A stretch of 33,240 nt of DNA from a virus: the IMG/VR virus record IMGVR_UViG_3300050821_014220, positions 1 through 33,240 of that record; one strand, 5' to 3'. How positions within the stretch are numbered: the first letter of the stretch is position 1; every line of letters starts with the position of its first letter. Both the position numbers and the translations under genes were made by a program. Shown here piece by piece: positions 5,252 through 23,055 of the stretch. Below the pieces are notes generated by a model that saw nothing but the letters and a program-made list of their open reading frames with translations, ran no database searches and had not been told where the DNA came from.

Positions 5252-5256
5252 TTGCT

Positions 5257-6101: not shown

Positions 6102-6107
6102 GTCACG

Positions 6108-6802: not shown

Positions 6803-6807
6803 ATTTG

Positions 6808-7398: not shown

Positions 7399-7399
7399 C

Positions 7400-7556: not shown

Positions 7557-7580
7557 TAAAAGCAGGATGATCTTTTTCAT

Positions 7581-8804: not shown

Positions 8805-9042
8805 CCTGATCGTCGTCTTCCTCATCGTCATCGGCTGGCACGGGAATCTGCCCGGGATCGATCTCTTCCCACTCTTCCTCGATGCGATCTTCATCCTCGG
8901 CCGCATTCAGTCCGGAGCACGCGCCGAGATGCCTGTGAAATTCCGCGATGCATTCCGCCTTTGTGCGGCCGTAAAAAATGTGCTCGACGCGGATGATGTC
9001 TTCGCCAGGATCGACTCGATAGATGTGATAGGCCCAGGCCAT
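8794..9042 (-). CDS. small acidic protein, 82 aa
   Basis: The N-terminal half is a compact domain (AWAYHIYRVDPGEDIIRV, then a helix with RTKAECIAEFHRH), while the last 30 residues are almost entirely Asp/Glu with Pro. The acidic tail could bind a basic partner, mimic DNA or chaperone one of the basic proteins. No family recognised. It lies upstream of fibre protein A and overlaps it. Confidence 0.65.
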   Translation of the reverse strand: MAWAYHIYRVDPGEDIIRVEHIFYGRTKAECIAEFHRHLGACSGLNAAEDEDRIEEEWEEIDPGQIPVPADDDEEDDDQDES

Positions 9043-9083
9043 GTGTACTCCGCGACTCGCGATCGGCGACTTGTGAAACCGAT

Positions 9084-9263
9084 TTATCGGTGTACGCCGT
9101 TCAACAAGACCGAAAGACCGGAATCGGTCAAAAGGAATGCCAGCAGTCCCGTCCAGAACATGATCTTCCCAATTTCAATCATTTTCCCGTTGGGGGCCGT
9201 GGACAAACCGAACATCAGAAGGCCTACGATCGCTACGAGCAAACTCAGATAGATGATCATCAT
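9084..9263 (-). CDS. small two-TM membrane protein, 59 aa (holin-like)
   Basis: It has two hydrophobic helices (about residues 3-20 and 32-55) joined by a short polar loop. AAGGAGAA lies just before tandem ATGs (9263 and 9260), and the start overlaps the previous stop. Size and topology match small phage holins or virion membrane proteins; no family is recognised. Confidence 0.65.
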   Translation of the reverse strand: MMIIYLSLLVAIVGLLMFGLSTAPNGKMIEIGKIMFWTGLLAFLLTDSGLSVLLNGVHR

Positions 9264-9523
9264 TTCTCCTTTGTTGCCGGCGGCGCCGGCGGAGTGTCTT
9301 CGTGCTTTGGCGGTGGCGGGGCTTCCGAGGGCTGCGCGCCGTAGAATTTCATCACGATGCCGCGAATGTTCAGCGCTCCGTAGTAGCTCACCAGATCGAG
9401 GAATTTGTTGTATTTCGGCGAGTTGAAAAACTCGCGCGGTGGAGCAAGGAAATAAATCGCGTTCCAAAATGCTCCCCAATATACGATCACATCCATTACT
9501 TGGTGGAGCGTGATGTGGTGCAT
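9260..9523 (-). CDS. membrane-associated protein with Pro-rich tail, 87 aa
   Basis: The N-terminal 30 residues contain a hydrophobic aromatic helix (DVIVYWGAFWNAIYFLAPP). The middle is amphipathic (KFLDLVSYYGALNIRG) and the last 25 residues are Pro/Glu/Lys-rich and probably disordered. The start overlaps the preceding stop (TGATG). It is coupled with the small membrane proteins on either side, and the trio at 9084-9783 is probably one membrane complex. Function unknown. Confidence 0.65.
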   Translation of the reverse strand: MHHITLHQVMDVIVYWGAFWNAIYFLAPPREFFNSPKYNKFLDLVSYYGALNIRGIVMKFYGAQPSEAPPPPKHEDTPPAPPATKEK

Positions 9524-9783
9524 CAGTTTCTCCAGGCGTCTTCACGTAGCAATCTGGCGACTCGTCCCGCCTTTTCTTTGGGCTCGAGCTCCTCGATCTC
9601 GTTGGCGATCATGTGTTTCCAGCGGCGTTCTGCCTTGCGTTCGTTCTCTCGGCCGACTCCCGCGACGTTGTTAACATCCGACTGCGCCTTCTGAATTTTG
9701 AGGCGCATAGTGGCGTAGACGACGCCGGCTCCGAACACCGCGCCGATCGCTGCCCAGGCGAAAACCAGAATCGATTCCGTCAC
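9523..9783 (-). CDS. single-TM protein with charged coiled-coil tail, 86 aa
   Basis: The GTG start overlaps the previous stop (GTGA). An N-terminal transmembrane helix (about residues 5-26) is followed by about 55 highly charged residues with heptad-like spacing. This is the layout of an inner-membrane spanin, but also of many small virion membrane proteins. No lipoprotein partner (outer spanin) is visible nearby, which weakens the spanin reading. Confidence 0.65.
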   Translation of the reverse strand: MTESILVFAWAAIGAVFGAGVVYATMRLKIQKAQSDVNNVAGVGRENERKAERRWKHMIANEIEELEPKEKAGRVARLLREDAWRN

Positions 9784-10064
9784 GTCTCGCCGCCGTCGTC
9801 TTTTTTCTCAGGCCGCTGCACCAGAAACGGTTTCTGCGGATCGCAAGTGGCTCCCTCTATCGTGGCGCTGTGGTGCGTGCGTTCTTCGAAAATCCTCACA
9901 AATTCCTGGTGCTGGCGATTCCGCACCTCGCCCTTGATGTCAAACATGGCCGTCACCAGCTCGTCAAAATGCCCGCAGCAAAGATCGAGCCCCCCCCACC
10001 GGTGCGGCGCCGGCAAGCCGCACACGGTCCCGCGCTCCGTGCTGAATCGGCATAGAGCATCCAT
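9780..10064 (-). CDS. zinc-binding (treble-clef-like) protein, 94 aa
   Basis: Residues 5-32 have the pattern C-x(9)-C ... C-C-x-H (CRFSTERGTVCGLPA, then LCCGH), typical of a small treble-clef or zinc-knuckle site. The rest is helical and charged and ends in a disordered basic/acidic tail. GGGAGAGGG sits upstream of the ATG. It is the only obviously zinc-binding soluble protein among the fibre genes and may be a structural adaptor or fibre chaperone. Confidence 0.65.
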   Translation of the reverse strand: MDALCRFSTERGTVCGLPAPHRWGGLDLCCGHFDELVTAMFDIKGEVRNRQHQEFVRIFEERTHHSATIEGATCDPQKPFLVQRPEKKDDGGET

Positions 10065-10123
10065 GTCTTTGGCCCTCTCCCCGTGGTGTCATCGTCGCCG
10101 ATCCTTTCGATGAATCTGTTCGA

Positions 10124-12679
10124 TCAAAACGGTTCTTGGTTCCAGCTAATCACATCGTTCTGCGTGATGCTCGTTGCCGTAGCCACGCAGGTCGTCACGG
10201 AGCCCGACGTTTGCGTGATGACGTTGGCGCGAGTGGTGCGGTCGCTGAAGTTGCATTGGTGGTCGTCAGGACTGACGTTTGGGAATGTCAGAGTGATCGT
10301 GCTCGCCGCCGTTACGCCTGTGCATGTGAACTTACCGCCCCGGTCGCCCAACACAGCGGGAACTTGCGTCGTGATTGTCGCGCACGCCCCGGTCCCGGTG
10401 ACCGTTGGCGCGGTCCCAATGGAAAGGAATTGTGAGGCAAATAGCGGCGCGTCGTTGCTGTAGACGGAATCAGACCCGGTCAATGTCGGAGGATTGCCAC
10501 CGATGAAGTTAGTAGCTGCTGAACCGCCCAACACATCCTGCGACAGTTCTATGCCAGGGTTCCCACCAGTAATCGAAGAGTCAGTAACCGGATTAGGAGT
10601 GAAATTCTTGTCCAGCACGCCGTTGCGATACGCATAGAGCCAATTCCCGATGTGGTACAACTTGATAACGTCATTGGTTGCGCAGCCAACTACGGCTGTT
10701 TGACTCGCTAAGATTGTCTGCACGCCCGTAACATGCTTATAAATGCCGCTGCCGGTCGCAGCCGCCCCAGAACAAAAATACGAGTAGAAAGTATCCGCTG
10801 TTAGGCTGGCATTTGTGATTACTTGGGCGTTGGAAGAAGCGTTGGCATCTATTGCGGCCACCGTTAGCTGTGCAAATTGGTCACTGGACGGAAACTGCTC
10901 ACCGATAAACACGTTGAAGCAGTTTGTTGGTAAAGCAGTGGTACATTGCGCCCTGTTGCTGACAATCGAGAATGTATTGACACTGAACGAACCTAGATGC
11001 CACGAAGGCCCCAGACCAACGACATTCGCTCTGGTGAACGTGTCAATTCCGGGCGTACGCGAAAGATTGTGCTGCGAAGTCGCTTGCAAGACCGTGAAAG
11101 ATGTCCCACCGCCGCCATCAAAAAGATTCGGAATTCCAACCAAGCCGATATTCTGGTTTCCAACCAAATAGCTGAGTAGACCGTTAGTGGCCCCCGGATT
11201 CGTCTCTGCAAAATGGTAAACTGGAAGAAATAATGGGTATCCACCTGCTGTGGCATCCTCTAGATCGAATCCGAATACGGTTAGAGCGCTGCCGAGAATC
11301 ATATTCGGGCCGAAAGTCAGGCAACGTGCGACTTCCCCACAAGCAGGAGCAACCCAGAAAGAAGAGTGACTAATTGTAGGACCGCGCATTCCGATGTCTA
11401 TGCCGTGATTGCCGTCTAGAGCTGCGCTTTGATTGATACCAACATGCTCGCCCCGCACATCTAAACCGACATCTGCACCCATGGTGTAAGACCAATCAAA
11501 CTCAGAGTGTTCCTTGGATCCATTCACGCTAGTCAAGCCAATCAAACCACCGGGATCTGTTTCTCCCCATGCGGTACACGCGTCCTGAACTGGAAAAAGG
11601 AGCGAGCCCTGTGCGACTGCCGTATCTGCGAAAACGTGGTCATATTCGACGTTTAACCCATTCTCCATCGACGATTCAGTTTCGCAGCCGCGCTGATTTG
11701 TAGGGACTCGAATGCCTAGATTCTTCAGGCGCATACTTGCGCCGACATTGGTCGTCACGTCCTTACGCGCCCACAGAACAGTAATTTTGGTATGCAGCGG
11801 CACCGATGAAACCGCTGCCGGTGTGAGATTGATGATCGTACCGCTTGTCTGCACTGGCGTTCCGAACTGATCAACTACCTGGTCTCCAATTTCACCCTCA
11901 ACTAACCATTGAGTGACCTGCTCTGTACTCGCACTGCCGCAACCTGAAACACAGGGAGGAAACGCCATGCAGTAGGCGTTCGAGAATCCGCCCGTCGATT
12001 CCGTATCGAGGCTGTTGCAATTGTAGATACCCTGCTTCATGAAAAAGTGGCCGCCATTTGGCGTAGCTGCTACAAGACCGTCCCACAGTGCCCGAAAGTC
12101 AGTAGAAGAGGTAAGAGCTCCGGTCACATTGTTTTGCGCGCAATATGTGGTCCCGCCTATGCTGTACGTTCCGCAATTTGAGCTGCTGGCTGGAAACATT
12201 GTGAACGTGCTGCTCGGACCATTTGCGCCCGGCCCTGCAGCGGCACTGTTGGAGAGTTTCGGGCAGCCCGCATTTATATTTGAGCTCACGCTCTGGCTTG
12301 CGCCGCTGATCGAAACGGACACCACAGTGCATTGCTGCGGGCCGGTGCCGGCGGGCGGCGAGATTCCCGGAGCTATGTTCACCGTGAATTGCCACTGCGT
12401 CCCACCGGGAGAGATCACAGCATTGCTGGCAAGATTCATGCTGAAAGTTCCGGTCACGTCTGCAGTGGCTCGAGTGAAGGATGCGACTTGTTGGCCGTTG
12501 ATCGTGGGAGTGATGCCCGTGGGGATAAGCTGAGCCTGCACGGAGGCATTCGAGTACGGCAGCCCATTCGGATCCACGATCGTGGCGTTGACGGTCGTGA
12601 TGTTCTGCGCCAGGGCAGGGAAGGGAAGGAAGCAAAGCAAGCTGAGGAAGCAAAGAATTCGGGAAATCTTGAAGAACAT
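10124..12679 (-). CDS. large secreted fibre/spike-like protein B, 851 aa
   Basis: It has a clear Sec signal peptide (MFFKISRI, Leu/Phe-rich core, cleavage after PALAQ). Residues 26-140 are the same N-terminal domain as in fibre A. The middle (about 170-550) has the repetitive strand-turn character of a right-handed beta-helix (short V/I-rich strands, Asn/Gly turns). A beta-sandwich, LamG-like region follows (about 560-730) with a Trp-rich patch. This would be the main host-receptor spike. Export of a phage spike through Sec is unusual and implies that assembly or spike attachment happens at or outside the inner membrane. Two palindromic operator-like sites lie just upstream (12705-12749). Confidence 0.78.
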   Translation of the reverse strand: MFFKISRILCFLSLLCFLPFPALAQNITTVNATIVDPNGLPYSNASVQAQLIPTGITPTINGQQVASFTRATADVTGTFSMNLASNAVISPGGTQWQFTVNIAPGISPPAGTGPQQCTVVSVSISGASQSVSSNINAGCPKLSNSAAAGPGANGPSSTFTMFPASSSNCGTYSIGGTTYCAQNNVTGALTSSTDFRALWDGLVAATPNGGHFFMKQGIYNCNSLDTESTGGFSNAYCMAFPPCVSGCGSASTEQVTQWLVEGEIGDQVVDQFGTPVQTSGTIINLTPAAVSSVPLHTKITVLWARKDVTTNVGASMRLKNLGIRVPTNQRGCETESSMENGLNVEYDHVFADTAVAQGSLLFPVQDACTAWGETDPGGLIGLTSVNGSKEHSEFDWSYTMGADVGLDVRGEHVGINQSAALDGNHGIDIGMRGPTISHSSFWVAPACGEVARCLTFGPNMILGSALTVFGFDLEDATAGGYPLFLPVYHFAETNPGATNGLLSYLVGNQNIGLVGIPNLFDGGGGTSFTVLQATSQHNLSRTPGIDTFTRANVVGLGPSWHLGSFSVNTFSIVSNRAQCTTALPTNCFNVFIGEQFPSSDQFAQLTVAAIDANASSNAQVITNASLTADTFYSYFCSGAAATGSGIYKHVTGVQTILASQTAVVGCATNDVIKLYHIGNWLYAYRNGVLDKNFTPNPVTDSSITGGNPGIELSQDVLGGSAATNFIGGNPPTLTGSDSVYSNDAPLFASQFLSIGTAPTVTGTGACATITTQVPAVLGDRGGKFTCTGVTAASTITLTFPNVSPDDHQCNFSDRTTRANVITQTSGSVTTCVATATSITQNDVISWNQEPF
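12249..12610. repeat. 362-bp duplication, copy 2
   Basis: Partner of 8365-8726, same orientation and length. The substitutions are scattered, which suggests divergence or gene conversion rather than an assembly artefact. Confidence 0.9.
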
Positions 12680-12704
12680 TCGCCACTCTCCCCAAAGTTA
12701 TCTG

Positions 12705-12749
12705 CCGTTCAGCGTGAACGGTTCATCGAGAATGCGTTCACCGTGAACG
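12705..12749. promoter_or_regulatory. pair of GTTCASCGTGAAC palindromes
   Basis: CCGTTCA-GCG-TGAACGG (12705-12721) and CGTTCAC-C-GTGAACG (12735-12749) are near-identical palindromes with centres 29 bp apart. They lie in the 120-base gap upstream of fibre gene B. Two spaced copies of one dyad are typical of a dimeric repressor or activator operator. They could also fold as small RNA hairpins in the operon transcript. Confidence 0.55.
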
Positions 12750-12799
12750 GTCGATTGCCGGGGAAAGTGGCGCTCGATCGTGCGATTTCCTGCTAGGAA

Positions 12800-13993
12800 C
12801 TACTGACTCGAAACCGTGATGTCCATCGCCACGCTCGCCTTCACGCAAATCCCATTTTGAAATGCCAAATTGTAAGGAATCGTTCCGAGTGGCGCCGTAG
12901 CCGTAGCGGTGATCACCGCTACTGTGTTCGTCGCTGGAGTGCCTGTGCAGCTTGCCTGCGGAAGATCAAAAATGCTGATCGTACCGGCCGCCGGTGTGTT
13001 TACCGTGACAGAGAGCAAGACCCCGCCGATATTCTTGACGTTCTGGGCCGTAGTGGCAGTGATGTGGCTGTAGCTGCCAAAAGTGGAATTCGGTTGCCCC
13101 GGCGGCAGGAAGAGGTAGTCAAAGGCAATCGTTCCAGCTCCGCCGGTGCCCGTGATATACGTCACCGTAACCGCAGAGCATGGAAACGAGAGGACCGGAA
13201 ACTGTTGGACGTTAGTGTTGTTAGAAATCGTGAACGTCTGTAGATTGTAAGTATTCACGAGGGCTTGGGCATTGCAGGCCACGGTGAGCGTGGAGCCGCT
13301 GATCGCCGCCGTAGAATATTGAAAGACGAGCACTCCCCCCGTCATTCCGAACGGGGGAATGATGCTGGGACTCGCGAAAGTCGTGTTTTCCGGAGCTCCA
13401 TGCACCACTGCCTTGTCGATCGTTTCGCTGAGAGCAAAGCCGGCAACGGGAATGGTCCCGGAGGAAGATCCAGAATAGCTGAGGGTGAAAGTACCGCCGC
13501 TGCAGGTCACCAAAAGCTGAATATTGCTATAGGCTCCCGAACCAAAAACCGTCGCCTGACCGCCCCCTGAACTTCCAGACGCCATCGCCGTATCCGACAG
13601 CGTGTAGATGGCGCCACCGCTGTCAATGCCTTGAATTTGCAGACTTGCATTGGTATTCGCACCTGAAAATTGGGCGTTGGCCCAATGGATCGTCTGCCCG
13701 ATATTGCGAAAGCCGAGAGCATTCAGTGCAGGATTTGAAGTGACGAAAGTCTGAGCAGATCCCGTGCACGACACTCCGCTGGCCACAGTAGCTTGGATCA
13801 ACTGCGGCGAGAAGGTGCCCTGGTACTGGGCGCGTGAAACGCCCGGAACGAAAAGAAGAAAGAGAACGAGCGCCAACAGCCTGGCAAGGCGTTTCTTCAT
13901 TGATGGAAGAAAGTGCCTTGGGGTGCGAGGATTCTTCAACGCTTTGCGCAGACCGCGAATTTGTTGCTCCTTCGTGAATTTCTTCCTCTCCAT
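12800..13993 (-). CDS. secreted beta-rich virion protein with N-terminal basic extension, 397 aa
   Basis: I chose the ATG at 13993, preceded by GGAGGCAGG; a GTG at 14011 overlapping the previous stop is also possible. The first 38 residues are basic and helical with a TPRHFLPSMKKRLARL motif. They run directly into a hydrophobic core and a signal cleavage site (VPGVSRAQ), so an internal ATG at about 13900 (MKKRLARL) would give a standard signal peptide. The rest is Ser/Thr/Gly-rich and all-beta, with several cysteines, like two tandem beta-sandwiches. It lies between fibre B and the jelly-roll-like genes and is probably an exported spike or spike-base component. Confidence 0.72.
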   Translation of the reverse strand: MERKKFTKEQQIRGLRKALKNPRTPRHFLPSMKKRLARLLALVLFLLFVPGVSRAQYQGTFSPQLIQATVASGVSCTGSAQTFVTSNPALNALGFRNIGQTIHWANAQFSGANTNASLQIQGIDSGGAIYTLSDTAMASGSSGGGQATVFGSGAYSNIQLLVTCSGGTFTLSYSGSSSGTIPVAGFALSETIDKAVVHGAPENTTFASPSIIPPFGMTGGVLVFQYSTAAISGSTLTVACNAQALVNTYNLQTFTISNNTNVQQFPVLSFPCSAVTVTYITGTGGAGTIAFDYLFLPPGQPNSTFGSYSHITATTAQNVKNIGGVLLSVTVNTPAAGTISIFDLPQASCTGTPATNTVAVITATATAPLGTIPYNLAFQNGICVKASVAMDITVSSQ

Positions 13994-14007
13994 CCTGCCT
14001 CCATGCC

Positions 14008-14493
14008 TCACATCGTGGTCAGATTCGGATCCTCGTACTCGAGCGGGTAGTAGTAGCCGAGCAGGCGTCCGCCAGAAAGCTGCCCCGCGAGCACGACGCT
14101 CACATTCATGACCACCAGCGTGACCACTTGGTTTTCAAAGACGCGGAAGCCGCTGGGATGGCGCGTCGGACTTGCCGGCGAACCAAGGCTGCCCAGAATC
14201 GCGTCGTAGCCGTCGACGGGAGCCCCATCGCGTGAAATTTGCCACGTCACCGCGCCGGATCCTTCCGTCCAGCCGCCTCCGACGAAATTGTTTCCGATGT
14301 TGGTGATGATCCCGTTGTTTCCGGTGGGGATCTGAATCGAAATGATGATGGCGCTGGCGCCGATCGCCGGGAGCGCGACGTAATTGAAGAGGTCGATCGG
14401 CTGAAATTCTGCCGGCGGGTAAATCCACGGCGGCAGCCGGTAGGATCCGGCTACCAATCCGTCCTGGCCGAGCGCGAGCGGAGGAGCGCTCAT
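14008..14493 (-). CDS. beta-sandwich virion protein, 161 aa (possible vertex/penton protein)
   Basis: An all-beta protein without signal or membrane segment. Strand pattern AIIISIQIPTG, TWQISRDG, GFRVFENQVVTLVVMNVSV and GRLLGYYYP fits a single jelly-roll or Ig-like sandwich of 8-10 strands. The N-terminal 40 residues are Pro/Tyr-rich and extended. The start overlaps the previous stop (ATGA). Together with 14490-15050 and 15095-15535 it forms a trio of small beta proteins. A vertex or penton role is inferred from size, fold pattern and position. Confidence 0.65.
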   Translation of the reverse strand: MSAPPLALGQDGLVAGSYRLPPWIYPPAEFQPIDLFNYVALPAIGASAIIISIQIPTGNNGIITNIGNNFVGGGWTEGSGAVTWQISRDGAPVDGYDAILGSLGSPASPTRHPSGFRVFENQVVTLVVMNVSVVLAGQLSGGRLLGYYYPLEYEDPNLTTM

Positions 14494-15050
14494 GACGATT
14501 TACCTCCCTGAACCCCATACATCCCGAACTGGATGATGTTTGGATTCGGCTCGAGATTCACCAAGGTGATCAACACTTGCGCGTTGGTTTCCTGAAACGC
14601 GTACGGCGCCGCCTGGCGCGAGCCCGTCATCCCGCCCTGAAACAGCGGGGAACTGCCCGTGCCGGCGAGATTCTGAAAATTGATTGGCCGGTCGGTGAGC
14701 CGCAGCCGTCGGTTCACGTCATAGACGTTCACGCGGAATCCGCCCTTGGCGTTCACGCTGGCGCTGCCGAAATAGCTGAGCAGGCGGAAACTATCCGGCA
14801 TGGGGATGCGCACCCGGCCGGTTTTCAGCGAGCCGAGCGTATTGAATTCGCAGTACACCCAGATGGGGATCCCGCCCTTAATCGGAATGACCGTGCCATC
14901 GCCCAGGAGGTACGGATCCTTCTGATTATTCGCGATCGTGCCTCTGACGGCGAATTGATTGATCAGCGTGTTTACGAGACGCGCCAGCGTCAACGGCCGC
15001 AGTCTTGGAACCGCCGGCGCGGCTCCAATGTTAGGAAACCATCCGGACAT
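14490..15050 (-). CDS. jelly-roll-like virion protein, 186 aa (candidate small capsid protein)
   Basis: The N-terminal 45 residues are helical, followed by an all-beta domain with regular 6-9 residue strands (IPIWVYCEFN, GRVRIPMPD, FRVNVYDV, AQVLITLVNL, IIQFGMYGV). The length is close to the small single-jelly-roll capsid proteins of Halopanivirales, whose known members are about 170-190 residues. That comparison is by size and pattern only. No signal or membrane segment. AAGAAGAG precedes the ATG, and the stop overlaps the next gene. It could be a minor capsid, vertex or fibre-base protein instead. Confidence 0.65.
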   Translation of the reverse strand: MSGWFPNIGAAPAVPRLRPLTLARLVNTLINQFAVRGTIANNQKDPYLLGDGTVIPIKGGIPIWVYCEFNTLGSLKTGRVRIPMPDSFRLLSYFGSASVNAKGGFRVNVYDVNRRLRLTDRPINFQNLAGTGSSPLFQGGMTGSRQAAPYAFQETNAQVLITLVNLEPNPNIIQFGMYGVQGGKSS

Positions 15051-15067
15051 AGGACTCTTCTTTCTAG

Positions 15068-15089
15068 GCGGGCTGCAAATACAGCCCGC
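15068..15089. repeat. GCGGGCTG palindromic element, copy 1 (inverted, intergenic)
   Basis: GCGGGCTG (15068-15075), loop CAAATA, CAGCCCGC (15082-15089): an 8-bp perfect stem. It is in the opposite orientation to the other three copies and lies between two genes, just after the stop of 15095-15535. Confidence 0.8.
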
Positions 15090-15094
15090 ACTCG

Positions 15095-15535
15095 CTAACT
15101 GCTCGAGACCTGCAGCAACGCGAAGCCGTGATAGGCGAGCTGCACCGTGTTTTGCGCGCCACTCGAATCCGTGAACGCATGCTGGTAGGAGCGAGATGCC
15201 GGCATGACGTATGGCACGGCGATCGGAAACGCCCCATTATTCGCCACCAGGCCCGCCAGGTTGTCGATAAACACGCCGTTGAACACGGTCTGCGACGATT
15301 GCTGCGAGCCTGAAAAAACCATGGCGCGCTGCGTCGCGGCTTCCGTGATCAGCACTTTCATTGCCGCGTTGGTGCGGAACGCCGCAAGGAACCACCACTC
15401 GAAATCCGCGTCCTGGGGGATCGTGAGGATGCTGGGGAGCTGCGTATTGAGCGGCACCACAGCATCCACGATCAGAACCCGGGGAATTTTTACGATCCCG
15501 CTAGCCGTAGCTGCGGGAGTTGGTGAAGAAGTCAT
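15095..15535 (-). CDS. jelly-roll-like virion protein, 146 aa
   Basis: A small all-beta protein with strands IVDAVVPL, FEWWFLAAFRT, AAMKVLITEA, FPIAVPYVMPASRSYQHAF and NTVQLAYHGFALL. The late pattern (P-rich strand, polar loop, NxVxxxxHG) is what I associate with single jelly-roll capsid or penton proteins. AAAAGGTGA lies upstream of the ATG. It directly follows the candidate major capsid gene, separated by two RNA hairpins. Role inferred from fold pattern and neighbours. Confidence 0.65.
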   Translation of the reverse strand: MTSSPTPAATASGIVKIPRVLIVDAVVPLNTQLPSILTIPQDADFEWWFLAAFRTNAAMKVLITEAATQRAMVFSGSQQSSQTVFNGVFIDNLAGLVANNGAFPIAVPYVMPASRSYQHAFTDSSGAQNTVQLAYHGFALLQVSSS

Positions 15536-15596
15536 TGAAGTTCACCTTTTCTACCCCACCGAAGGGGCGGCTTTTTCATTTGGCCCTAAACGTTCG

Positions 15597-15622
15597 CCCC
15601 GGTTTCCTGAACGAAACCGGGG
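15597..15622. terminator. 10-bp perfect hairpin after the candidate capsid gene
   Basis: CCCCGGTTTC (15597-15606), loop CTGAAC, GAAACCGGGG (15613-15622). It lies just past the stop of the candidate capsid gene in the minus transcript. There is no T-run on the minus strand, so it is more likely an mRNA-stabilising or attenuating hairpin than a full terminator. A second, weaker stem (CCCC/GGGG at about 15554-15567) follows before the next gene. Confidence 0.6.
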
Positions 15623-15627
15623 AAGGA

Positions 15628-16437
15628 TTAAACAACCGCGACGAGCGTGATGCCCTCGAGGTAGATCCACGCGAGGACGCCCACGGAAACGTACCCGGGA
15701 ACCGTCGTCGTGCTGTTCGCCGTGGTATAGACCGTCGCTTGCGTCTGCGTCGGATCGCACACCACTTGGAACGGCTGTTGCTGCTCGAGCAGCACGCCAG
15801 TGATCGGCGTGATCGGCGGATATCCCGGAATATCCGGAACTCCGTCCGTGATCGGAGCAACGTTCTGCGCGGATGGCCAGCCATTCCCTGCGCCGAACTG
15901 CGCTTGCGGCGCGGTGAAGGTAGCTCCGCCGCTGGCGAACGTGCCCCCGCCGGCGGGCAATTTCTGGCCGTGACCGATCCAGAATTGTTTGCCGAGGGTC
16001 GAAAACGTCACCAGGTACTGCCCCGCCAACGCGTTGACGTCGGCGATGGACATGTCGGGACGCCCCATCAGCGAAATATTCTTCACCAGAAGTTTCTTCG
16101 GCGCATCGAGCGCGCCGCTGGTGAGAAGATTCGAGTGGAAGAACGTCTTGATGATCGGTCCGGCGGCGCCTGCCCCGGTGTATTGCTGCCCGAACGGAAT
16201 CGTGAAGAGCGTTTCCGCGCGGACCGCCGTGTTGATCGCTACGCTGAAGAAGTCGTAAAGAGGCTGAACGCGTGCGTCCAGTTGCCCCTGCACGATATTT
16301 TTCAGGCGCATGCGGCCATGCGGCCGGCCGATCTCATGCTCCGACATCGTACGAAGGTGGACGCGGGTGCGGGCTGTACTTGCAGCCTGCATTCCGTTTG
16401 TCCGCCTTCGCTCAAATCGATTTGCTTGTGCTTGCAT
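15628..16437 (-). CDS. candidate major capsid protein, 269 aa
   Basis: The ATG at 16437 has a strong ribosome site (AAGGGAGTGAG). The first 30 residues include an in-frame palindromic repeat, so an alternative start at 16347 (MSEHEIG) is possible. From about residue 45 the protein has helix RMRLKNIVQGQ, then strands ETLFTIPFGQQ, KKLLVKNISLMG, QYLVTFSTLGKQFWIGHG, QPFQVVCD and VSVGVLAWIYLEGITLVAVV, an all-beta architecture with one long glycine-rich loop. Features favouring a major capsid protein are no signal, mid-operon position, strong ribosome site and a hairpin after the stop. No HK97 features are visible. A single or small double jelly-roll capsid protein is the leading idea, not proven. 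Confidence 0.5.
   Translation of the reverse strand: MQAQANRFERRRTNGMQAASTARTRVHLRTMSEHEIGRPHGRMRLKNIVQGQLDARVQPLYDFFSVAINTAVRAETLFTIPFGQQYTGAGAAGPIIKTFFHSNLLTSGALDAPKKLLVKNISLMGRPDMSIADVNALAGQYLVTFSTLGKQFWIGHGQKLPAGGGTFASGGATFTAPQAQFGAGNGWPSAQNVAPITDGVPDIPGYPPITPITGVLLEQQQPFQVVCDPTQTQATVYTTANSTTTVPGYVSVGVLAWIYLEGITLVAVV
16365..16390. repeat. GCGGGCTG palindromic element, copy 2 (inside candidate capsid gene)
   Basis: Sequence GGGTGCGGGCTG, loop TACTTG, CAGCCTG, one mismatch in the stem. It is translated as part of the N-terminal extension of the candidate capsid protein (MQAASTARTR), in a different frame from copies 3 and 4. Confidence 0.8.
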
Positions 16438-16513
16438 TGAAACTCACTCCCTTCCGGATTGAATTTTTGTCCCGGCGATTTCCAAATCGCTCGGGAGATG
16501 CACTGCAAAATCT

Positions 16514-17062
16514 TTAGCCGAACCTGCCGGCGGAGAAGCGCGTCGGAGCTCCCCCACGCCCGCCGGGTCCGCTCATGCCCTTTGCAGCAGGGGCGGGAGC
16601 GAGAATCGGTTGCGGATAGGGAGAAGTCGCGGTGCGGCCGTACGGATCGGAAACGGTGGGTACCGCGAAATAACTTTGCCAGTACGCACCGAGCGTGAAC
16701 GTGGGATCGCCGGACAGGCCCTGGATTTTTGCGCCCAGGTTATCTGAGACGATACGAGTCACCGTCGCGACGGCGCCGCCGACGAAGAAGTCATCTCCGG
16801 TTTGTCCGGGGATCACCATTTTCATCAGAATGGCCGTAGCGGCATTCAACGCGTAGCCCATGATCCCGGTGTTCTGATTGGGCAGGGCCATCGCCGGAAA
16901 CGCTCGAGCCGCAATATAGCCGACAGAACCCCAGAGAACCCGGGTCATGTCTCCTGCTTGCATGCCGAACGGATTTCGGCGGCGATGATGATACTTGTGT
17001 TTCTTTGCCAATTGAATCACCCCCTCTCGTCGATAAGGATTCCAGATACGAATTTGTGCCAT
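16514..17062 (-). CDS. virion membrane-associated protein with RRRNPF motif, 182 aa
   Basis: The start overlaps the previous stop (TAATG). A basic N-terminus (KKHKYHHRRRNPFG) precedes a helical, moderately hydrophobic region (about residues 38-110) rich in Ala/Gly with a GIMGYALNAATAILMKM helix, then a Pro/Gly-rich disordered tail. I recall similar NP-motif proteins with Gly-rich hydrophobic helices among uncultivated phage structural genes, but cannot name a family. It is likely to associate with the virion membrane or line the capsid interior. Confidence 0.62.
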   Translation of the reverse strand: MAQIRIWNPYRREGVIQLAKKHKYHHRRRNPFGMQAGDMTRVLWGSVGYIAARAFPAMALPNQNTGIMGYALNAATAILMKMVIPGQTGDDFFVGGAVATVTRIVSDNLGAKIQGLSGDPTFTLGAYWQSYFAVPTVSDPYGRTATSPYPQPILAPAPAAKGMSGPGGRGGAPTRFSAGRFG

Positions 17063-18126
17063 TAGAAAGCCCTCGCAAAGACAACCCCGCCGGCAATGAG
17101 CGCGCCGATCATCAGCCAATTCGGTGAGCTCGCGGGAGCTGCAGCGGCCGGCGGAGGGATCGTGAGCGTGCTTCCGCTGGAAACAATTGGAGCGGCCGCG
17201 GGACCGGCGCCGGCGGATCCGCTTCCAGGCTGTGCGGCAGCCGAAGCCGGCGTAGCCGACTGCTGCGCGGCGAGCGCGGTATATTGCGCCTGCCAGTACA
17301 AAACCATTGCCAGCAGGGCCAGGCTCAACAAGCAATTGCTGTTACACCACGGACTATCGTTGATGGGTTGTCCGCCGCTTTGTATTCCTGAAGGGCCTGA
17401 AATGCTGCCGCCCGCGCCACCGGCTTTCATGAACTGCGAATAAATTTCCGGCAGCGCCGCTGCGGCCGCGGCCGGAGTGGTTTTACCGCTCTGCACGGCT
17501 TGCGCGATCACAGCGAACGCATTGTTGACGGCGGGAAGCGCGCTACATCCGAAATTCAGATCGCGCTTCACGGCGGCGGCGTGGTGCGCAAAGATGATCC
17601 CGATCACGCTGATGATCAGGCCCACGCCCATGGTGGCCGCGCCGAGCGCTACAGACGTGGCTACTGTGATTGCGTGGGTAGCGGTTGCGATGCCTATCCC
17701 TACTCCAGCCGATGACAAGGAGAGTCCGCTGGCCGTGGAAAATAAATTCAAGGGCTGCGCGGCGATTCCAGTGCAATCCGGACCGATCGGAGGAGTGACT
17801 GGCAACTGTCCCGATTCGACTACCGGTTCCAGCGTGGCCAGCCAGCCCGAATTTCCCGACGGCGCAGGGTTGACATGGAAACCCGAATACATCGAGAGAG
17901 CTTTCTGCAAAGCGTCGGCGGAGGTGATTGGCCCGGGAGCACCGAGGCCTCGCAGCGTGGGATTGCAGGATCCGCCGCAGCCGCATCCGCAATCGCCGCC
18001 GGGTGCGGGCTGTACTTGCAGCCCGAGGAGAGAAAGATTGCGCACGCCGAGCGGAAGAGGGACGCCCAGGACCACGTAGCCGGTTAGGTTACGTCGCGCT
18101 CTGTCGAGTTGGTATGCTCCCAGCAT
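17062..18126 (-). CDS. multi-TM virion protein with Cys-rich patch, 354 aa
   Basis: It starts at 18126 with AAAGGAAA upstream. Order of regions: an N-terminal beta region containing the in-frame palindromic element (GLQVQPAP), a CGCGCGG cluster, a predicted membrane segment (about residues 140-180, ALGAATMGVGLIISVIGIIF), a helical AHHAAAVKRDL...TTPAAAAAALPEIYSQF module, a second hydrophobic segment (about 255-275), a long Ala/Pro/Ser linker, and a C-terminal transmembrane helix ending ARAF. Membrane integration is clear, function is not. A capsid-membrane linker or DNA-delivery protein is possible. Confidence 0.65.
   Translation of the reverse strand: MLGAYQLDRARRNLTGYVVLGVPLPLGVRNLSLLGLQVQPAPGGDCGCGCGGSCNPTLRGLGAPGPITSADALQKALSMYSGFHVNPAPSGNSGWLATLEPVVESGQLPVTPPIGPDCTGIAAQPLNLFSTASGLSLSSAGVGIGIATATHAITVATSVALGAATMGVGLIISVIGIIFAHHAAAVKRDLNFGCSALPAVNNAFAVIAQAVQSGKTTPAAAAAALPEIYSQFMKAGGAGGSISGPSGIQSGGQPINDSPWCNSNCLLSLALLAMVLYWQAQYTALAAQQSATPASAAAQPGSGSAGAGPAAAPIVSSGSTLTIPPPAAAAPASSPNWLMIGALIAGGVVFARAF
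18001..18025. repeat. GCGGGCTG palindromic element, copy 3 (in-frame)
   Basis: GGGTGCGGGCTG, loop TACTTG, CAGCCCG: perfect 7-bp stem. On the minus strand it encodes LGLQVQPAP within the multi-TM virion protein. Confidence 0.85.
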
Positions 18127-18208
18127 TTTCCTTTGCGATTGCCGCTCTCCCGTTTTTCACGAGCTCTCGGAAAATCTTTCGCTCCCGCCGGCGCCGCTGC
18201 GGCGTCAT
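18089..18208 (-). CDS. possible small very basic protein, 39 aa
   Basis: An ATG at 18208 opens a 39-residue frame beginning TPQRRRRRERKIF, in the 92-base gap between two structural genes, and overlaps the start of the next gene. It has no clear ribosome site. The composition suits a DNA-condensing peptide, but Arg-rich frames are common by chance in GC-rich DNA. Confidence 0.3.
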   Translation of the reverse strand: MTPQRRRRERKIFRELVKNGRAAIAKENAGSIPTRQSAT

Positions 18209-18218
18209 TCGTACGCGC

Positions 18219-18815
18219 TTAGTCAAAAGTGAGCAGCCCTCCCACGAGAAACCCCATCTTCTTTGCGGGGCTGTACAAAAACGCGGGCTTGGTACCGTTC
18301 GCAGGATTCGTACGGCCGCGCAGGATCGGCATCGAGGCCATCACCACGATCGCGATCTGCTCCACCGGCTGCAGAACCAGGTACTTCGTCCCGTCGCGGC
18401 CGAAGATCTGCCCGCTCGCGTAATAATCCATGTCCTGGCGGATCATCGGCACGGGCGGATCGGTGGGAGACATCCGCCGGTAGCGCGGATCCGCCATCTT
18501 CGGCGCATACTCCACGCCTCGAGGGAAGAGAAAGACCTCGGTGCGGCTGGTGTGGCCGTCGGACATGTGCGCCAGGTATGGAAAACAATTTTGGTTCCAG
18601 TCCAGGGTGAGCCCCATCATCCGCGTGATGGGCGAAATGCGATCGCGCACCGCGTCCTGGAAATAGGCGCTGTCGTCAGAGATCCCGAGCTGGATCCGCA
18701 TGACCTGGCCGACAGGCGTCCAGTGCCGGTTGCGGATCGCCGCCATCTGCTGCGCGAGCTGATCGGCCAGGTTCAGCGGCGCGACTCTTTGGACCGCGGG
18801 TGCTGTGGCGCTCAT
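18219..18815 (-). CDS. putative virion protein, 198 aa
   Basis: The ATG at 18815 overlaps the previous stop (ATGA); longer upstream frames are shadows of the zinc-binding gene. The N-terminal third is helical (LADQLAQQMAAIRN). The rest is mixed with strands TRMMGLTLDWN, EVFLFPRGV, GTKYLVLQPVEQIAIVVMAS and a hydrophobic end GFLVGGLLTFD. It lacks a signal or a confident transmembrane helix. It is coupled with the conserved virion-like protein upstream. Fold unclear; it could be a minor capsid or assembly protein. Confidence 0.65.
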   Translation of the reverse strand: MSATAPAVQRVAPLNLADQLAQQMAAIRNRHWTPVGQVMRIQLGISDDSAYFQDAVRDRISPITRMMGLTLDWNQNCFPYLAHMSDGHTSRTEVFLFPRGVEYAPKMADPRYRRMSPTDPPVPMIRQDMDYYASGQIFGRDGTKYLVLQPVEQIAIVVMASMPILRGRTNPANGTKPAFLYSPAKKMGFLVGGLLTFD

Positions 18816-19033
18816 TGTTGGATCACCGGGACCCCTGGAGTTACCGGCGTCACCACCATCTTTTGCAGATGGCACTGCTCGCCTTTTTTCTTTTTCCCGC
18901 AGCCGGCGAATTCGCACTGCACGCAGAGCGAGCCCGAGGCTCCCGGTAAGGGGCGCTCGGGCGGCGAAACTGATCTCGCGGAGAACGCCCCGCAACAGGT
19001 GCACGAAATCAAAATTTGTCCTTTGTTTTTCAA
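18812..19033 (-). CDS. zinc-binding small protein, 73 aa (TTG start)
   Basis: It starts with TTG at 19033 overlapping the previous stop (TTGA), with GGATAAG upstream. Cysteine pairs CTCC and CVQCEFAGC ... C define one zinc site, split by a 10-12 residue segment (PERPLPGASGS) encoded by a palindromic repeat. The insertion falls in the loop between the two knuckles, where it would be tolerated. The C-terminal 20 residues are Val/Pro-rich. Role unknown. Confidence 0.6.
   Translation of the reverse strand: MKNKGQILISCTCCGAFSARSVSPPERPLPGASGSLCVQCEFAGCGKKKKGEQCHLQKMVVTPVTPGVPVIQQ
18932..18962. repeat. GAGGCTCCCGGTAAGGGGCGCTC palindromic element, copy 1 (in-frame)
   Basis: GCCCGAG (18932-18938) and CTCGGGC (18956-18962) flank the core CTCCCGGTAAGGGG, giving a long imperfect hairpin. 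It lies inside the zinc-binding gene 18812-19033. The same core occurs inverted at 20021-20051. Confidence 0.75.
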
Positions 19034-20010
19034 TTTCTTATCCAGGCTCCCTCGATCCGGTACGTCGCTCGATCAAGAATCAGGCGGCGCATTTTCCGGT
19101 CATACCAAATCCGCGGACAGGTCCCGCCCTCTTCTCCGAACTTGTGATCCCAGCGCGCATCTTCTCCGCGCGCGGAAGCGGGAACTTCGCTGCCGAATTT
19201 CGCCATGCCGTAGCTGATCGCGCGGCACCCGCCCAGCTCCACTCGCTCACGCTCGCTCGCCGTGAACACACGCAAATCGGCTTCGGTGAGATCCTGTCCG
19301 GTTCCGACAACGTAGAGTTGGCGTCCGGAGGGATCGCTGATCAGCTCGAGATCCCGGCCGGGGAAACTGATTTCCTGGACGACTTCCGTTTGCCCGGTGG
19401 AAGTGGGCTTCACGGCGACGGCGATGAATTCGCCCAGGTCGGTATAATCGCCGGCCGGCACGTGTGGCTCGTCCTGCACGGTGTAATGCTCACTCGCTTG
19501 GCCGGAAAAACCTTCGCGCAATTCGCGCGCTTGCTCCGCTGATGGTGAATCGAGATCTGCAGCCGGATTCGGGAACTGATTCCTCAACCGCTTCGTCTGG
19601 CGAACCATCCGCCGCGCGCGCGCCAGGTCCTCGAGAGTTCGGATATGCGCTTTTCCAATCCCCAGGCGGCCAAATGCCAGACGTTCATCCACGGGAAGGG
19701 AATCGTAGATTTGCGTCGGGTTTCTTCTGCCCCGCGATTTACTCCTGCCTGGCCCTGAGCTTCGCGAGGCTCTTCCCGGATTCGCGCCCATCAGGAGAAG
19801 CTCCGCGGGATTCTTCAACGCCACAGGGCAGGGATTTTCTCCCCGGGGATGAAGCACGCCCACGACGATCCCGGATCCTTTTACACGCTGCCCAGGAGGG
19901 AAGGCGACGCGCACCTGGTGCGTGCCCGCCCTCACCGTGCGAACTTTGTAGCCAGCAGGAACGCTGCGAACTTCCTGATGGTGGAACCGGGATGTTTCTC
20001 CGAATGGCAT
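19030..20010 (-). CDS. conserved virion-like protein with NPAELLLMGANP motif, 326 aa
   Basis: The ATG at 20010 is the first plausible start after the palindromic repeat. The N-terminal third is beta-rich and hydrophilic, ending in NPAELLLMGANPGR followed by a basic Gly/Arg-rich stretch. The middle is a helical charged region (about residues 95-165). The C-terminal third is a compact beta domain with RAISYGMAKFG, HKFGEEGG and RRLILDRATYRI. I recall this motif combination from uncultivated phage genes of unknown function, but this is from memory. The NP motif flanked by basic residues looks like a processing or binding linker. Confidence 0.65.
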   Translation of the reverse strand: MPFGETSRFHHQEVRSVPAGYKVRTVRAGTHQVRVAFPPGQRVKGSGIVVGVLHPRGENPCPVALKNPAELLLMGANPGRASRSSGPGRSKSRGRRNPTQIYDSLPVDERLAFGRLGIGKAHIRTLEDLARARRMVRQTKRLRNQFPNPAADLDSPSAEQARELREGFSGQASEHYTVQDEPHVPAGDYTDLGEFIAVAVKPTSTGQTEVVQEISFPGRDLELISDPSGRQLYVVGTGQDLTEADLRVFTASERERVELGGCRAISYGMAKFGSEVPASARGEDARWDHKFGEEGGTCPRIWYDRKMRRLILDRATYRIEGAWIRN

Positions 20011-20020
20011 CGTTTTTACC

Positions 20021-20051
20021 GCGCGAGCGCCCCTTACCGGGAGCCTCGCGC
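20021..20051. repeat. GAGGCTCCCGGTAAGGGGCGCTC palindromic element, copy 2 (inverted, intergenic)
   Basis: GCGCGAG (20021-20027) and CTCGCGC (20045-20051) flank the inverted core shared with 18932-18962. It sits between the stop of the 51-aa gene and the start of the conserved virion-like gene. Confidence 0.75.
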
Positions 20052-20207
20052 TCAATCTTTCGCGTTCTCTCCGAGGTCGCCGTGATCGCCGGTCTCGCCG
20101 ACGTCGCCGCATTCCTTCGCATGAGTCGGCGCAGCAGGCTTCTTTTTCAGATCCGCCTTCGGATCGGGCGCTGAATTTTTGGGACCAGATTTCGTTCCTT
20201 CACTCAT
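20052..20207 (-). CDS. small hydrophilic protein, 51 aa
   Basis: The ATG at 20207 follows the previous stop by 3 bases, with AGAGGTGA as ribosome site. The protein is a low-complexity chain rich in Lys, Asp, Gly and Pro, with an acidic repeat-like end (GDVGETGDHGDLGE). No fold is expected. The good ribosome site and tight spacing support a real gene. It could be a scaffold-like or charge-neutralising peptide; function unknown. Confidence 0.55.
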   Translation of the reverse strand: MSEGTKSGPKNSAPDPKADLKKKPAAPTHAKECGDVGETGDHGDLGENAKD

Positions 20208-20210: not shown

Positions 20211-21389
20211 TCACCTCTTCTTTGGCATGCGTACGTAGATATCCAACCAATTCGCTACGATGGCGCGCTGCGCTTCGGCCAGGTCCATCTTTCCGTTGCA
20301 CACCTGCGCGTGCAGGTAATTCTCGACGGAATCTTTTTCGTGGGCGCCAGGGCGCGGCGTATAGGGCTCGGGCCACAGATTGCGAACGTCGTCCGCTCCG
20401 CCCAGCTCGAGGGAGATCAAATGATCGATTTCGTAGTAGGATTCCTGTCCTGCATGGCCGCCATCTTTAGAAGCGTTGCTTGGATTTTCAGTCACCGGAT
20501 TGAATTCAATCCGAACGGGTGCTGGATTTGGAAAGGAAAAGCTATGAGCAACGGCGGATATGGCCGCTGGGGACAAATCCGAGCGCACCTTTTTGTCTGG
20601 CGCATATTTTGCGGCCCAATCCCTAAAGGGAAAGAACTTGACCACATTTGCAGGAATCCCTTGTGCGTCAACCCGGATCACCTGGAACCCGTCTCCCATC
20701 GAGTGAACGTTCGCCGCGGAACCAGCCCTTGCGCGGTCAAGGCTCTCCGGACTAGATGCCCGCGCGGACATCCGTTCAGTCGAGCGAATACCTGGATTCG
20801 AAAGGATGGAACACGGCTCTGCCGGGCTTGCCATTCTTTGCGCCAGGCAAGCTACAAGCGACATGGGAAGGGGCTTTGATTTGTCGATGCCGTATTGCGC
20901 GTAAACTTTCGCCTTCATTTCGGCGGTGGTTTTTCGGAATTGCTTTGTGGATCCGCCGTGGCACACGCTTTCCAAAGTCGCATCGGGGCGAACGAGGCCC
21001 GGCGTTACGGCGGGATCCGGCAGCAGCGCAGTCAAGCCGCCTATTTTGGTTTGGGCGTAGCTTGCAGCGGGTGCGGGCTGTACTTGCAGCCCGTCGGCAG
21101 ATTGTCCCGCCGCCGGAATAGCCATGGCGACAGAGCAGAGTAGGACAATCGACAAGAACGAGTAATTGACACGTAAACGTAAGAATAGCGATACTAAAGC
21201 GCTCCCAAACTTTCCCTTTGGAGGCTCCTCAAAATGAGAGCTCAAATTGCTGCAATCGTTTTCGTGTTTCTCATGGGCATGCTGGCGGGCACGTTCGCGG
21301 ACGAGTGGGCCCAGCAGCACGATGCTGCAATCGCGCAGGGACAGGGGTTGTCTCAGCAAACTCTCCCGAATTCCGTTCGATAGCGTCAT
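20211..21389 (-). CDS. secreted HNH-type nuclease-like protein interrupted by an antisense homing endonuclease gene
   Basis: The frame is open for 392 residues. The ATG at 21389 overlaps the previous stop, but the real N-terminus may be the hydrophobic signal-like segment at about residues 76-95 (LSIVLLCSVAMAIPAAG). Downstream come the in-frame palindrome (GLQVQPAP), then a domain split in two: residues 123-171 (VTPGLVRPD, TTAEMKAKVYAQYGIDKS) and 314-392 (EIDHLISLELGGADDVRNLW, AHEKDSVENYLH, VCNGKMDLAEAQ). In relatives known to me these halves adjoin, making a small exported HNH-fold protein with the DHL metal motif. The 140 residues between are the antisense reading of the homing endonuclease, so the protein is either a fusion or inactivated. 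Confidence 0.7.
   Translation of the reverse strand: MTLSNGIRESLLRQPLSLRDCSIVLLGPLVRERARQHAHEKHENDCSNLSSHFEEPPKGKFGSALVSLFLRLRVNYSFLSIVLLCSVAMAIPAAGQSADGLQVQPAPAASYAQTKIGGLTALLPDPAVTPGLVRPDATLESVCHGGSTKQFRKTTAEMKAKVYAQYGIDKSKPLPMSLVACLAQRMASPAEPCSILSNPGIRSTERMSARASSPESLDRARAGSAANVHSMGDGFQVIRVDAQGIPANVVKFFPFRDWAAKYAPDKKVRSDLSPAAISAVAHSFSFPNPAPVRIEFNPVTENPSNASKDGGHAGQESYYEIDHLISLELGGADDVRNLWPEPYTPRPGAHEKDSVENYLHAQVCNGKMDLAEAQRAIVANWLDIYVRMPKKR
20421..20879 (+). CDS. HNH homing endonuclease, antisense inside the secreted HNH-type gene
   Basis: A classic HNH_3-type homing endonuclease: GCWIWKG, GYGRW, HLFVW, GPIPKGKELDHICRN (catalytic DH), CVNPDHLEPV (N and H of HNH), then a C-terminal zinc knuckle CPRGHPF ... 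CRACH. Start: ATG at 20421 has GGGAG upstream; ATG 20454 would begin just inside the insert and is also possible. It cuts a specific DNA site and promotes its own spread by repair (family knowledge). The stop at 20879 coincides with the inferred insertion edge in the minus-strand gene. It is on the opposite strand to the host gene and is not in a recognisable group I intron. Confidence 0.85.
   Translation: MIDFVVGFLSCMAAIFRSVAWIFSHRIEFNPNGCWIWKGKAMSNGGYGRWGQIRAHLFVWRIFCGPIPKGKELDHICRNPLCVNPDHLEPVSHRVNVRRGTSPCAVKALRTRCPRGHPFSRANTWIRKDGTRLCRACHSLRQASYKRHGKGL
21069..21093. repeat. GCGGGCTG palindromic element, copy 4 (in-frame)
   Basis: Same 23-base unit as at 18001, perfect 7-bp stem with TACTTG loop. 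On the minus strand it encodes GLQVQPAP just after the signal segment of the HNH-type protein. Confidence 0.85.
21166..21195 (+). promoter_or_regulatory. candidate sigma70 promoter for the 49-aa plus gene
   Basis: TTGACA (21166-21171), 18-base spacer, GATACT (21190-21195). It points to the small plus-strand gene at 21234 and lies antisense to the minus operon. A perfect -35 and a ribosome site at the expected distance downstream support it. Confidence 0.55.
21234..21383 (+). CDS. small exported or membrane peptide, 49 aa, antisense to the operon
   Basis: The ATG at 21234 follows GGAGG by 9 bases and a TTGACA/GATACT promoter by about 38. The first 22 residues are a hydrophobic helix with a signal-peptide look (AQIAAIVFVFLMGMLAGTFA). 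The remaining 27 are Gln/Asp-rich and polar. It overlaps, on the opposite strand, the poorly conserved 5' part of the HNH-type frame, which supports the idea that that gene really starts further downstream. Function unknown; a lysis-timing or superinfection peptide is possible. Confidence 0.5.
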   Translation: MRAQIAAIVFVFLMGMLAGTFADEWAQQHDAAIAQGQGLSQQTLPNSVR

Positions 21390-22258
21390 ATCCGTTTTTC
21401 AAAAACGATTCCGACGACAAGCATTCCGAGCAGCCCGATGCCGATCCATGGGCCCCAGCTCTGCAGAACCGCCGCAGGTGTAGGTGTTGCACCGGGAAAA
21501 GTCGGAGTTCCGATCGGGAGGATCGCAACGTTGGAAGAGGCCCCTGCCGATGGTCTACTTACAATTCCGAGCGAGTCTCCTACGATATTTCCAGTGATCG
21601 CGAGCATCGCATTGTGCAGAATGCTGTAGGCGTCATTCTGCAAGGCGAATCCGTTGCCGATCACCTGGACAGAAATTGTGATCGCGAAAGTGCTTGGGCC
21701 GTTGTCCGTGACTTGGCTTCCCGTCACGACCATCCCGTACGAGGAAATCTTGCTCGAAAGCTGGCTGATTACCGCGCTTGTCGGCAGTAGAAGATTTGCG
21801 ACGTCATAAATCGGTTCTGTATATGAAACCTGGTACAGGAGTTGCGTGCCAGATGGAATCTGTGCGCTTGACCCAGATGCAGCAGGTCCCGCGTTCGCCG
21901 GAATGGAATAGCCGGGAGTTCCCGAGCTCGAGCGTGGCGGCGGAGGAGGAACAGCGGGATTAATTGATATCCCTGAAGACGGGGCGGCCGCACTAGGAAT
22001 GCTCACGCCGTAATTCGAATAGAGCTGTGCTATGGTCACGATTCCGGACATCAGATTCGCGATGTCCTGATCAGTCGCACCCACGCTGCTTAAAAGATCG
22101 ATGTCCGATTGCGAGTAACCACTGGCGATCGCCATTGACGCCATCGTTGAGCTGATCGCGCCGAGGCCTCCGAGCATGTGACCGGCGCCGCTGAGCGTGC
22201 GTAGACGTCTCACGCCGATGGAGGTTCCTTCAAACGTGGGCATGGTCGCGTAGCTCAT
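21386..22258 (-). CDS. C-terminally anchored virion protein, 290 aa
   Basis: The ATG at 22258 overlaps the previous stop (ATGA). The N-terminal 85 residues are helical with SQSDIDLLSSVGATDQDIAN. A poly-proline linker (about residues 100-125) leads to an alpha/beta region with LLYQVSYTEP, STFAITISVQVIG and a helix DAYSILHNAM, resembling small membrane-insertion or stomatin-like folds only loosely. A second Pro/Thr linker ends in a transmembrane helix and a basic tail (VFEKRI). There is no N-terminal signal, so the bulk should face the cytoplasm or virion interior. Confidence 0.65.
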   Translation of the reverse strand: MSYATMPTFEGTSIGVRRLRTLSGAGHMLGGLGAISSTMASMAIASGYSQSDIDLLSSVGATDQDIANLMSGIVTIAQLYSNYGVSIPSAAAPSSGISINPAVPPPPPRSSSGTPGYSIPANAGPAASGSSAQIPSGTQLLYQVSYTEPIYDVANLLLPTSAVISQLSSKISSYGMVVTGSQVTDNGPSTFAITISVQVIGNGFALQNDAYSILHNAMLAITGNIVGDSLGIVSRPSAGASSNVAILPIGTPTFPGATPTPAAVLQSWGPWIGIGLLGMLVVGIVFEKRI

Positions 22259-23055
22259 TTGCGGCCCTTTACTGCCATGCCGATGATGAGCAGGACCACC
22301 AGGCCAGCTCCGCCATAAATCGCCACGTCGGGCAATCCCGAAATAATTGAGCTCTTTGTGAACCATGAACCGCCAGTCCCTCCGGCCTGTGCGAGAAGGG
22401 CATTAGCCGAAGCGGTGTACGTCGCCGCGAGTGCTGGATTCGAACTCGCGAGCGCGGCCGCCTGCGCCTGCAGCGATTGCGCTTGAGCCACGAGCGAGGC
22501 CTGCGTAGTCGGCGCGACCGGCGCGATCGCAGGATTGATCTGCGGTTGTCCCGTAGCCGCCTTTGCGATCGACGTGCCAAAAGACGTGAGCGAGCTCACG
22601 ATCTGCGCCCAGGGCGTCACCGCTTGCCCGGCAGCGGAAGGCGTCGCCGGCGAAAGAATGCTGCCTCCCGAGCTCACGATCGAGGGCGCGGCCGATATCG
22701 GCCCGGGAGTGAAGGGAGCGATCGCCGGCGCGATCGGAGGCGACATCGGATAAAGATCGACGGGCAGCGGCGGAAGAATCGGGGAAAGATTCAAGCTGGT
22801 CATGTCCACCGGTGCGAGCGGCAGATTCGAAAAATCGACCGTGTCCGTGCTGTCCTGGCCGAGGAATGATCCCATCGTCCCGCTGCGCACGATCCACGGA
22901 TTTCCCTGCGTCGCGGCGCGCGCGGAATCAAAATACGCTTTCCAATTCACGCCGTCGGCGTACCCGCGCATCGTCCCCGCGGGCAATCCGCGCAGAGGCA
23001 CGCGCGGCGGTGGGCCCGGATTGAAAACTGGCGTGGGTCGGTACAGATAGGACAC
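22255..23055 (-). CDS. C-terminally anchored Pro/Ala-rich virion protein, 266 aa
   Basis: The GTG start at 23055 shares one base with the previous stop; GGAGGG lies 11 bases upstream. The N-terminal 50 residues are basic and Pro-rich (VFNPGPPPRVPLRGLPAG), followed by a long Pro/Ile/Ser-rich low-complexity region, then helices with QASLVAQAQSLQAQAAAL, and finally a transmembrane helix with basic tail (MAVKGRK). Architecture matches its two neighbours. No enzyme motif; probably structural in the virion membrane. Confidence 0.65.
   Translation of the reverse strand: MSYLYRPTPVFNPGPPPRVPLRGLPAGTMRGYADGVNWKAYFDSARAATQGNPWIVRSGTMGSFLGQDSTDTVDFSNLPLAPVDMTSLNLSPILPPLPVDLYPMSPPIAPAIAPFTPGPISAAPSIVSSGGSILSPATPSAAGQAVTPWAQIVSSLTSFGTSIAKAATGQPQINPAIAPVAPTTQASLVAQAQSLQAQAAALASSNPALAATYTASANALLAQAGGTGGSWFTKSSIISGLPDVAIYGGAGLVVLLIIGMAVKGRK

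Follow-up and report, generated by a model that had tools for sequence, protein, structure and literature searches.

We have identified, in an uncultivated bacterial virus, an arrangement that is best explained, with good confidence, as a bare HNH_3 homing endonuclease ORF inserted in reverse into a gene for a secreted HNH-type nuclease. The window, that is, the whole stretch of DNA analysed, is an IMG/VR record of 33,240 bases. The interrupted gene is the minus-strand ORF 20211–21389 (392 aa), whose ATG at 21389 overlaps the stop codon of the upstream gene 21386–22366 (ATGA). The first-pass annotation had read this frame as two halves of an HNH-fold domain separated by the antisense of a complete HNH_3 homing endonuclease, and both parts of that reading were borne out. 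The N-terminal half of the host domain (20880–21047, minus strand; about residues 115–170) runs LLPDPAVTPG...CHGGSTKQFR...VYAQYGIDK, and the C-terminal half (20214–20453, minus strand; residues 313–392) carries the conserved E-x-DHL, N-L-W-P and L-H positions. The host protein also has a putative signal-peptide-like hydrophobic stretch (21089–21155, minus strand; LSIVLLCSVAMAIPAAGQ...), called from the sequence.

The whole 392-aa frame has no family match in Pfam or PHROGs. Unlike a search with the whole protein, which returned no relative because the patterns came largely from the divergent and inserted parts, a search with the two halves joined (127 aa) recovered relatives: 248 viral stretches, 531 genome stretches and 48 plasmid records, most of the latter matched end to end, with identity up to 45%. 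The annotated phage collection gave zero matches to the joined halves. The joined halves thus have over 160 uninterrupted relatives across viruses, plasmids and genomes. The nearest viral ones (L089 and L090) are 61–63% identical over aligned host positions, the N-terminal half is 54–61% identical to those of its subfamily, and the relatives have a signal-peptide-like start at the same place as the window copy. The core that defines the family, YE-x-DHL ... N-L-W-P ... K-D..E..LH ... C, is kept in the host, and the invariant columns E, D, H, N, P, K-D, E, C and W are all present in its C-terminal half. The score against PF01844 (HNH) is 15.1–15.6 bits, below the gathering cut-off of 21.4, so the host is HNH-like and is not filed as PF01844. 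An uninterrupted relative was modelled by AlphaFold with a mean pLDDT of 88, and a fold search with it gave weak HNH matches only (Rhs2-CT and Cas8f-HNH, E-value at least 0.2), which indicates an HNH-like family fold to which no solved structure is closely related. In L089, L091 and L092 the host-type gene is preceded by a stretch of about 60 nt (AACGTTTCTGGCGCTGCGGATAGCGGTGAA...) that is nearly identical in these otherwise diverged viruses and is more conserved than the gene that follows it.

In alignments with the relatives a single clean insertion is seen, lying between ‘YGI’ and ‘YEIDHL’; the window carries about 142 extra codons at a point at which every relative examined runs on without a break. 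The uninterrupted homologues that the first-pass annotation had suggested seeking thus exist, and none of them, from viruses, plasmids or genomes, has the middle ∼140 residues, the observation set beforehand as counting against the insertion. When 20454–20879 (426 nt) is cut out, the host is left with a linker of nine residues (IDK-AGQESY). The corresponding linker of the relatives, between ‘YG’ and ‘YE-x-DHL’, is most often eight residues long (80 of 138) and mostly seven to nine, with a range of 6–22 that leaves out two longer values produced by regular-expression mis-parses. The longest linkers (21–22 aa) belong to the closest viral relatives, which shows that this loop varies in length. 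It is the sole length-variable loop of the host domain; it lies directly before the catalytic His and adjoins the part of the host gene whose DNA is most conserved.

Across the observed linker lengths the insert measures 387–435 nt. Its span is best placed at 20454–20879, with edges uncertain by about 13 codons in total owing to the length variation of the host linker; within that margin, the earlier claim that the endonuclease stop at 20879 coincides with the edge of the insert holds. This stop is the complement of host Ser171, and the start is the complement of His312. In essence, the insert is thus the endonuclease ORF alone. No near-identical empty allele was present among the homologues found; the junction is therefore placed approximately, and homing in the recent past is conjectural. 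Other carriers were not found either: a scan with the subfamily-specific N-terminal half gave only five loci, all uninterrupted. A 216-aa plus-frame match to L005, which would have pointed to a further antisense insertion in this gene, was rejected as a gapped extension containing a stop.

The inserted segment (20454–20879, plus strand; 141 aa, ATG to TGA) was identified as an HNH_3 homing endonuclease ORF by Pfam, by a phrog match and by alignment with its relatives. It matches PF13392 (HNH_3) with E-value 6.7e-14, at 51.7 bits and above the Pfam gathering cut-off of 24.8, and phrog_826 with E-value 6.4e-41. In alignment with more than 35, close to 40, viral relatives it is complete from the N-terminus through the C-terminal Cys/His zinc-ribbon, and the catalytic His/Asn residues and the motifs ELDH, CVNPDHLEPV and RCPRGH...CRACH are intact. 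The endonuclease had been annotated at 20421–20879; its strand and stop stand, and judging by the start positions of the relatives ATG 20454 is the more likely start. The alternative in-frame start at 20421, which gives 152 aa, has the better Shine-Dalgarno-like sequence, GAGGGAG. This sequence and its ATG (20409–20423, plus strand) lie opposite the host codons for DHLISLE. On that strand the invariant host His codon always reads ATG or GTG, and a Shine-Dalgarno-like stretch is found there in 27 of 163 relatives too. The endonuclease may possibly have borrowed its start signal from host-antisense DNA, and it may be actively homing, as the term ‘parasitised’ in the first-pass annotation implied. 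One of its relatives, L060, has a single ORF (1813–2736) with two tandem HNH_3 domains.

Codon boundaries coincide in the two genes, and only a TTA, CTA or TCA codon of the endonuclease could therefore put a stop into the host frame. The endonuclease has none of these three, and the host frame reads through as an insert of 142 residues. The statement that the insert keeps the host frame open is correct in this respect, but the openness is unremarkable for the register. When the endonuclease codons were resampled with the codon usage of the virus, the antisense frame was open with a probability of 0.14 in the codon-aligned register and in 0.8% and 0% of cases in the other two antisense registers, and it is open in three of the 27 endonuclease relatives with 50–60% GC. 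Read-through is expected in about 2% of random insertions (one half for the strand, one third for the register and 0.14 for openness). The open frame is weak evidence of selection on read-through, and biased evidence, since openness is why the case was noticed; it could have arisen by chance. Among 81 endonuclease relatives screened for an antisense frame that spans the endonuclease and extends at least 50 codons on each side, two had one (L018 and L060), and both were rejected as proteins because they read as GC-driven non-proteins.

The chief competing explanation, to which we would give a little less than an even chance, is that the host gene is dead, a dispensable gene inactivated by the endonuclease, and that its frame is open by coincidence, owing to the register and the GC content. 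The resampling and the GC-matched relatives speak for it, as do the position of the insert immediately ahead of the catalytic His and the lack of a clear start codon with a ribosome-binding site in the host ORF. The candidate starts (ATG, GTG or TTG) ahead of the signal-peptide-like stretch are only at residues 1, 11, 24 and 49, and there is no good ribosome-binding site at any of them; as all of them are far upstream of that stretch, the N-terminus of the host (residues 1–78) is uncertain. The N-terminal part of the host frame is overlapped on the other strand by the plus-strand ORF 21236–21385 (MRAQIAAIVFVFLMGMLAG...), which has a GGAGG site and, at 21166–21195, a promoter-like 10/12 match; it is plausible that this ORF is a small gene, and, like the unclear start codon of the host, it counts against the preferred explanation. 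Standing against a dead gene are the low expectation of read-through for a random insertion and the state of the two halves, which show no frameshift, stop or loss of conserved residues and retain 32 of 34 conserved positions, a count that falls inside the spread seen in intact relatives. The AlphaFold model of the interrupted host gives pLDDT of about 80–98 for both halves and about 34–62 for the insert. The host is probably translated as a single enlarged protein, with an HNH fold predicted to be able to close around the insert.

A more far-reaching proposal, which we regard as unlikely, is a splicing-free lifestyle of homing endonuclease genes (HEGs), with codon-aligned antisense insertion into a length-tolerant loop, avoidance of TTA, CTA and TCA, and expression of and selection on both genes. 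Less likely still are true antiparallel overlapping genes, with the endonuclease and the 142-residue insert both under selection and the insert having a function of its own. That the frame is open and in phase and that motifs are kept in both genes agrees with this proposal; the peptide has no family match and low model confidence, the case is the only carrier found, and openness is no rarer than chance in this register.

An exact direct repeat of 97 nt is found at the window ends (1–97 and 33144–33240), which makes it probable that the record represents a whole circular genome of some 33.1 kb; the terminal repeat also fits a terminally redundant genome. There is scant room, accordingly, for the suspicion that a virus record of this kind may invite, namely that the junctions are a metagenome assembly chimera of a host-gene contig and an endonuclease contig: the terminal repeat is as in a complete circular assembly, the host halves are collinear and in frame on both sides of the insert, and the GC content of the insert (55.6%) is near that of the flanks (58–60%). 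We consider a chimera very improbable. The genome has other repeats. A 300-nt duplication (8365–8664 versus 12249–12548; 96% identical) lies in the N-terminal parts of ORFs 7581–8906 and 10124–12679 and is a module common to two otherwise different, probably structural, proteins. A hairpin-forming repeat of the type CGGGCTG-CAAGTA-CAGCCCG occurs at 15069, 16364, 18000 and 21068, with three copies pointing the same way and the fourth inverted; that at 21068 is within the host gene and codes for LQVQPAP, which is also present near the start of ORF 17062–18126. A 50-nt inverted repeat (18925–18974 and 20009–20058; 84%) is situated close to gene starts, and an exact direct repeat of 44 nt is found at 29368–29411 and 31160–31203.

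Removal of the insert by splicing of RNA (an intron) or of protein (an intein), which the first-pass annotation had suggested checking and which the frequent residence of gene-interrupting HEGs within introns or inteins would favour (PMC3943268, PMC10448857), can be set aside as the least probable explanation of all: the endonuclease ORF alone fills the insert and leaves no room for an intron or ribozyme, an Rfam search gave no group I or other intron (a single irrelevant match at E-values up to 10), the read-through peptide, being the antisense of the endonuclease, has zero Pfam or NCBIfam matches and no intein splicing domain, and the frame stays open, which splicing would make needless.

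No related virus was found with the 851-aa protein or the transglutaminase-like protein as query; the helicase as query gave one, L249, a distant relative that is collinear with the window virus (helicase 53% identical; 32.5 kb; region 1–19178). In the syntenic slot of L249, flanked by a homologue of the 19030–20112 gene and an apparent homologue of the 21386–22366 gene, a different secreted-type protein takes the place of the interrupted gene, and the host-family gene has no match in L249. The slot thus appears to hold exchangeable, variable cargo. Both appear to be members of a virus group that has been little described and that has many secreted or membrane-anchored proteins. In another viral relative, L159, an HNH_3 gene is located directly upstream of the host-type gene, a single hint of a recurrent association between the two.

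Several known systems resemble parts of this arrangement. The mobE gene splits nrdA of phage Aeh1, with the resulting polypeptides reassembling, and mobA is inserted in the T4 topoisomerase gene (60/39) (PMC2988022). As in these cases, an HNH-type, free-standing, intron-less HEG lies within a phage coding sequence at a functionally critical region; however, in Aeh1 and T4 the gene is split into separate reassembling polypeptides and the hosts are essential enzymes, whereas here the endonuclease is antisense, the host frame is continuous and the interrupted gene is cargo encoding a secreted nuclease-like protein. Antisense homing endonuclease genes occur in nuclear rDNA group I introns (PMC9548176), likewise on the strand opposite to the interrupted gene; those introns are self-splicing and the genes eukaryotic rRNA genes, in contrast to the intron-less, protein-coding host described here. 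In the wasp Campsomeris insertional fission turned mitochondrial cox2 into two genes (PMC5374615). That case shares with ours the in-frame insertion, an HNH-like nuclease ORF, antiparallel overlapping ORFs and a protein-coding target, but its insert is a 3-kb gene cluster, and ours is one bare ORF in a bacterial virus. The endonuclease itself has the domain and the two-part architecture, N-terminal HNH_3 and C-terminal zinc finger, of the HNH_3 (PF13392) endonucleases of the ICP1 gp28/gp80/gp179 or Mob type (PMC10448857); only its place and orientation are unusual. None of the open-access papers searched describes an antisense insertion into a phage gene that has no intron and keeps the frame.

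The insertion of a bare, reversed endonuclease ORF, which we prefer, may have proceeded as follows. A free-standing HNH_3 gene, with little beyond its start-to-stop ORF and no intron or intein around it, would have entered the host gene in reverse, landing in the length-variable linker beside the most conserved host DNA. Likely, an uninterrupted allele was cleaved near the conserved stretch by the endonuclease or a relative, and the endonuclease ORF was then copied in during repair of the break. The codon-aligned register and the missing TTA, CTA and TCA codons would let the host frame read through. That the insertion persists is probably due to the dispensable nature of the secreted cargo in this slot and to the tolerance of the loop for changes in length, and the host would probably still be made as one enlarged protein with the HNH fold predicted to close around the insert.

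Gene parasitism of this general kind is known, and the present example of it is unusual. As there is just one case, its weight depends on more carriers or evidence of expression. When a homing endonuclease occupies a coding gene, it normally either resides in an intron or intein or splits that gene; a bare, reversed endonuclease gene in a loop-coding stretch, with the host frame continuous, would be a third possible outcome. It would also be a natural test of the size of random-sequence loop that an HNH fold can bear.
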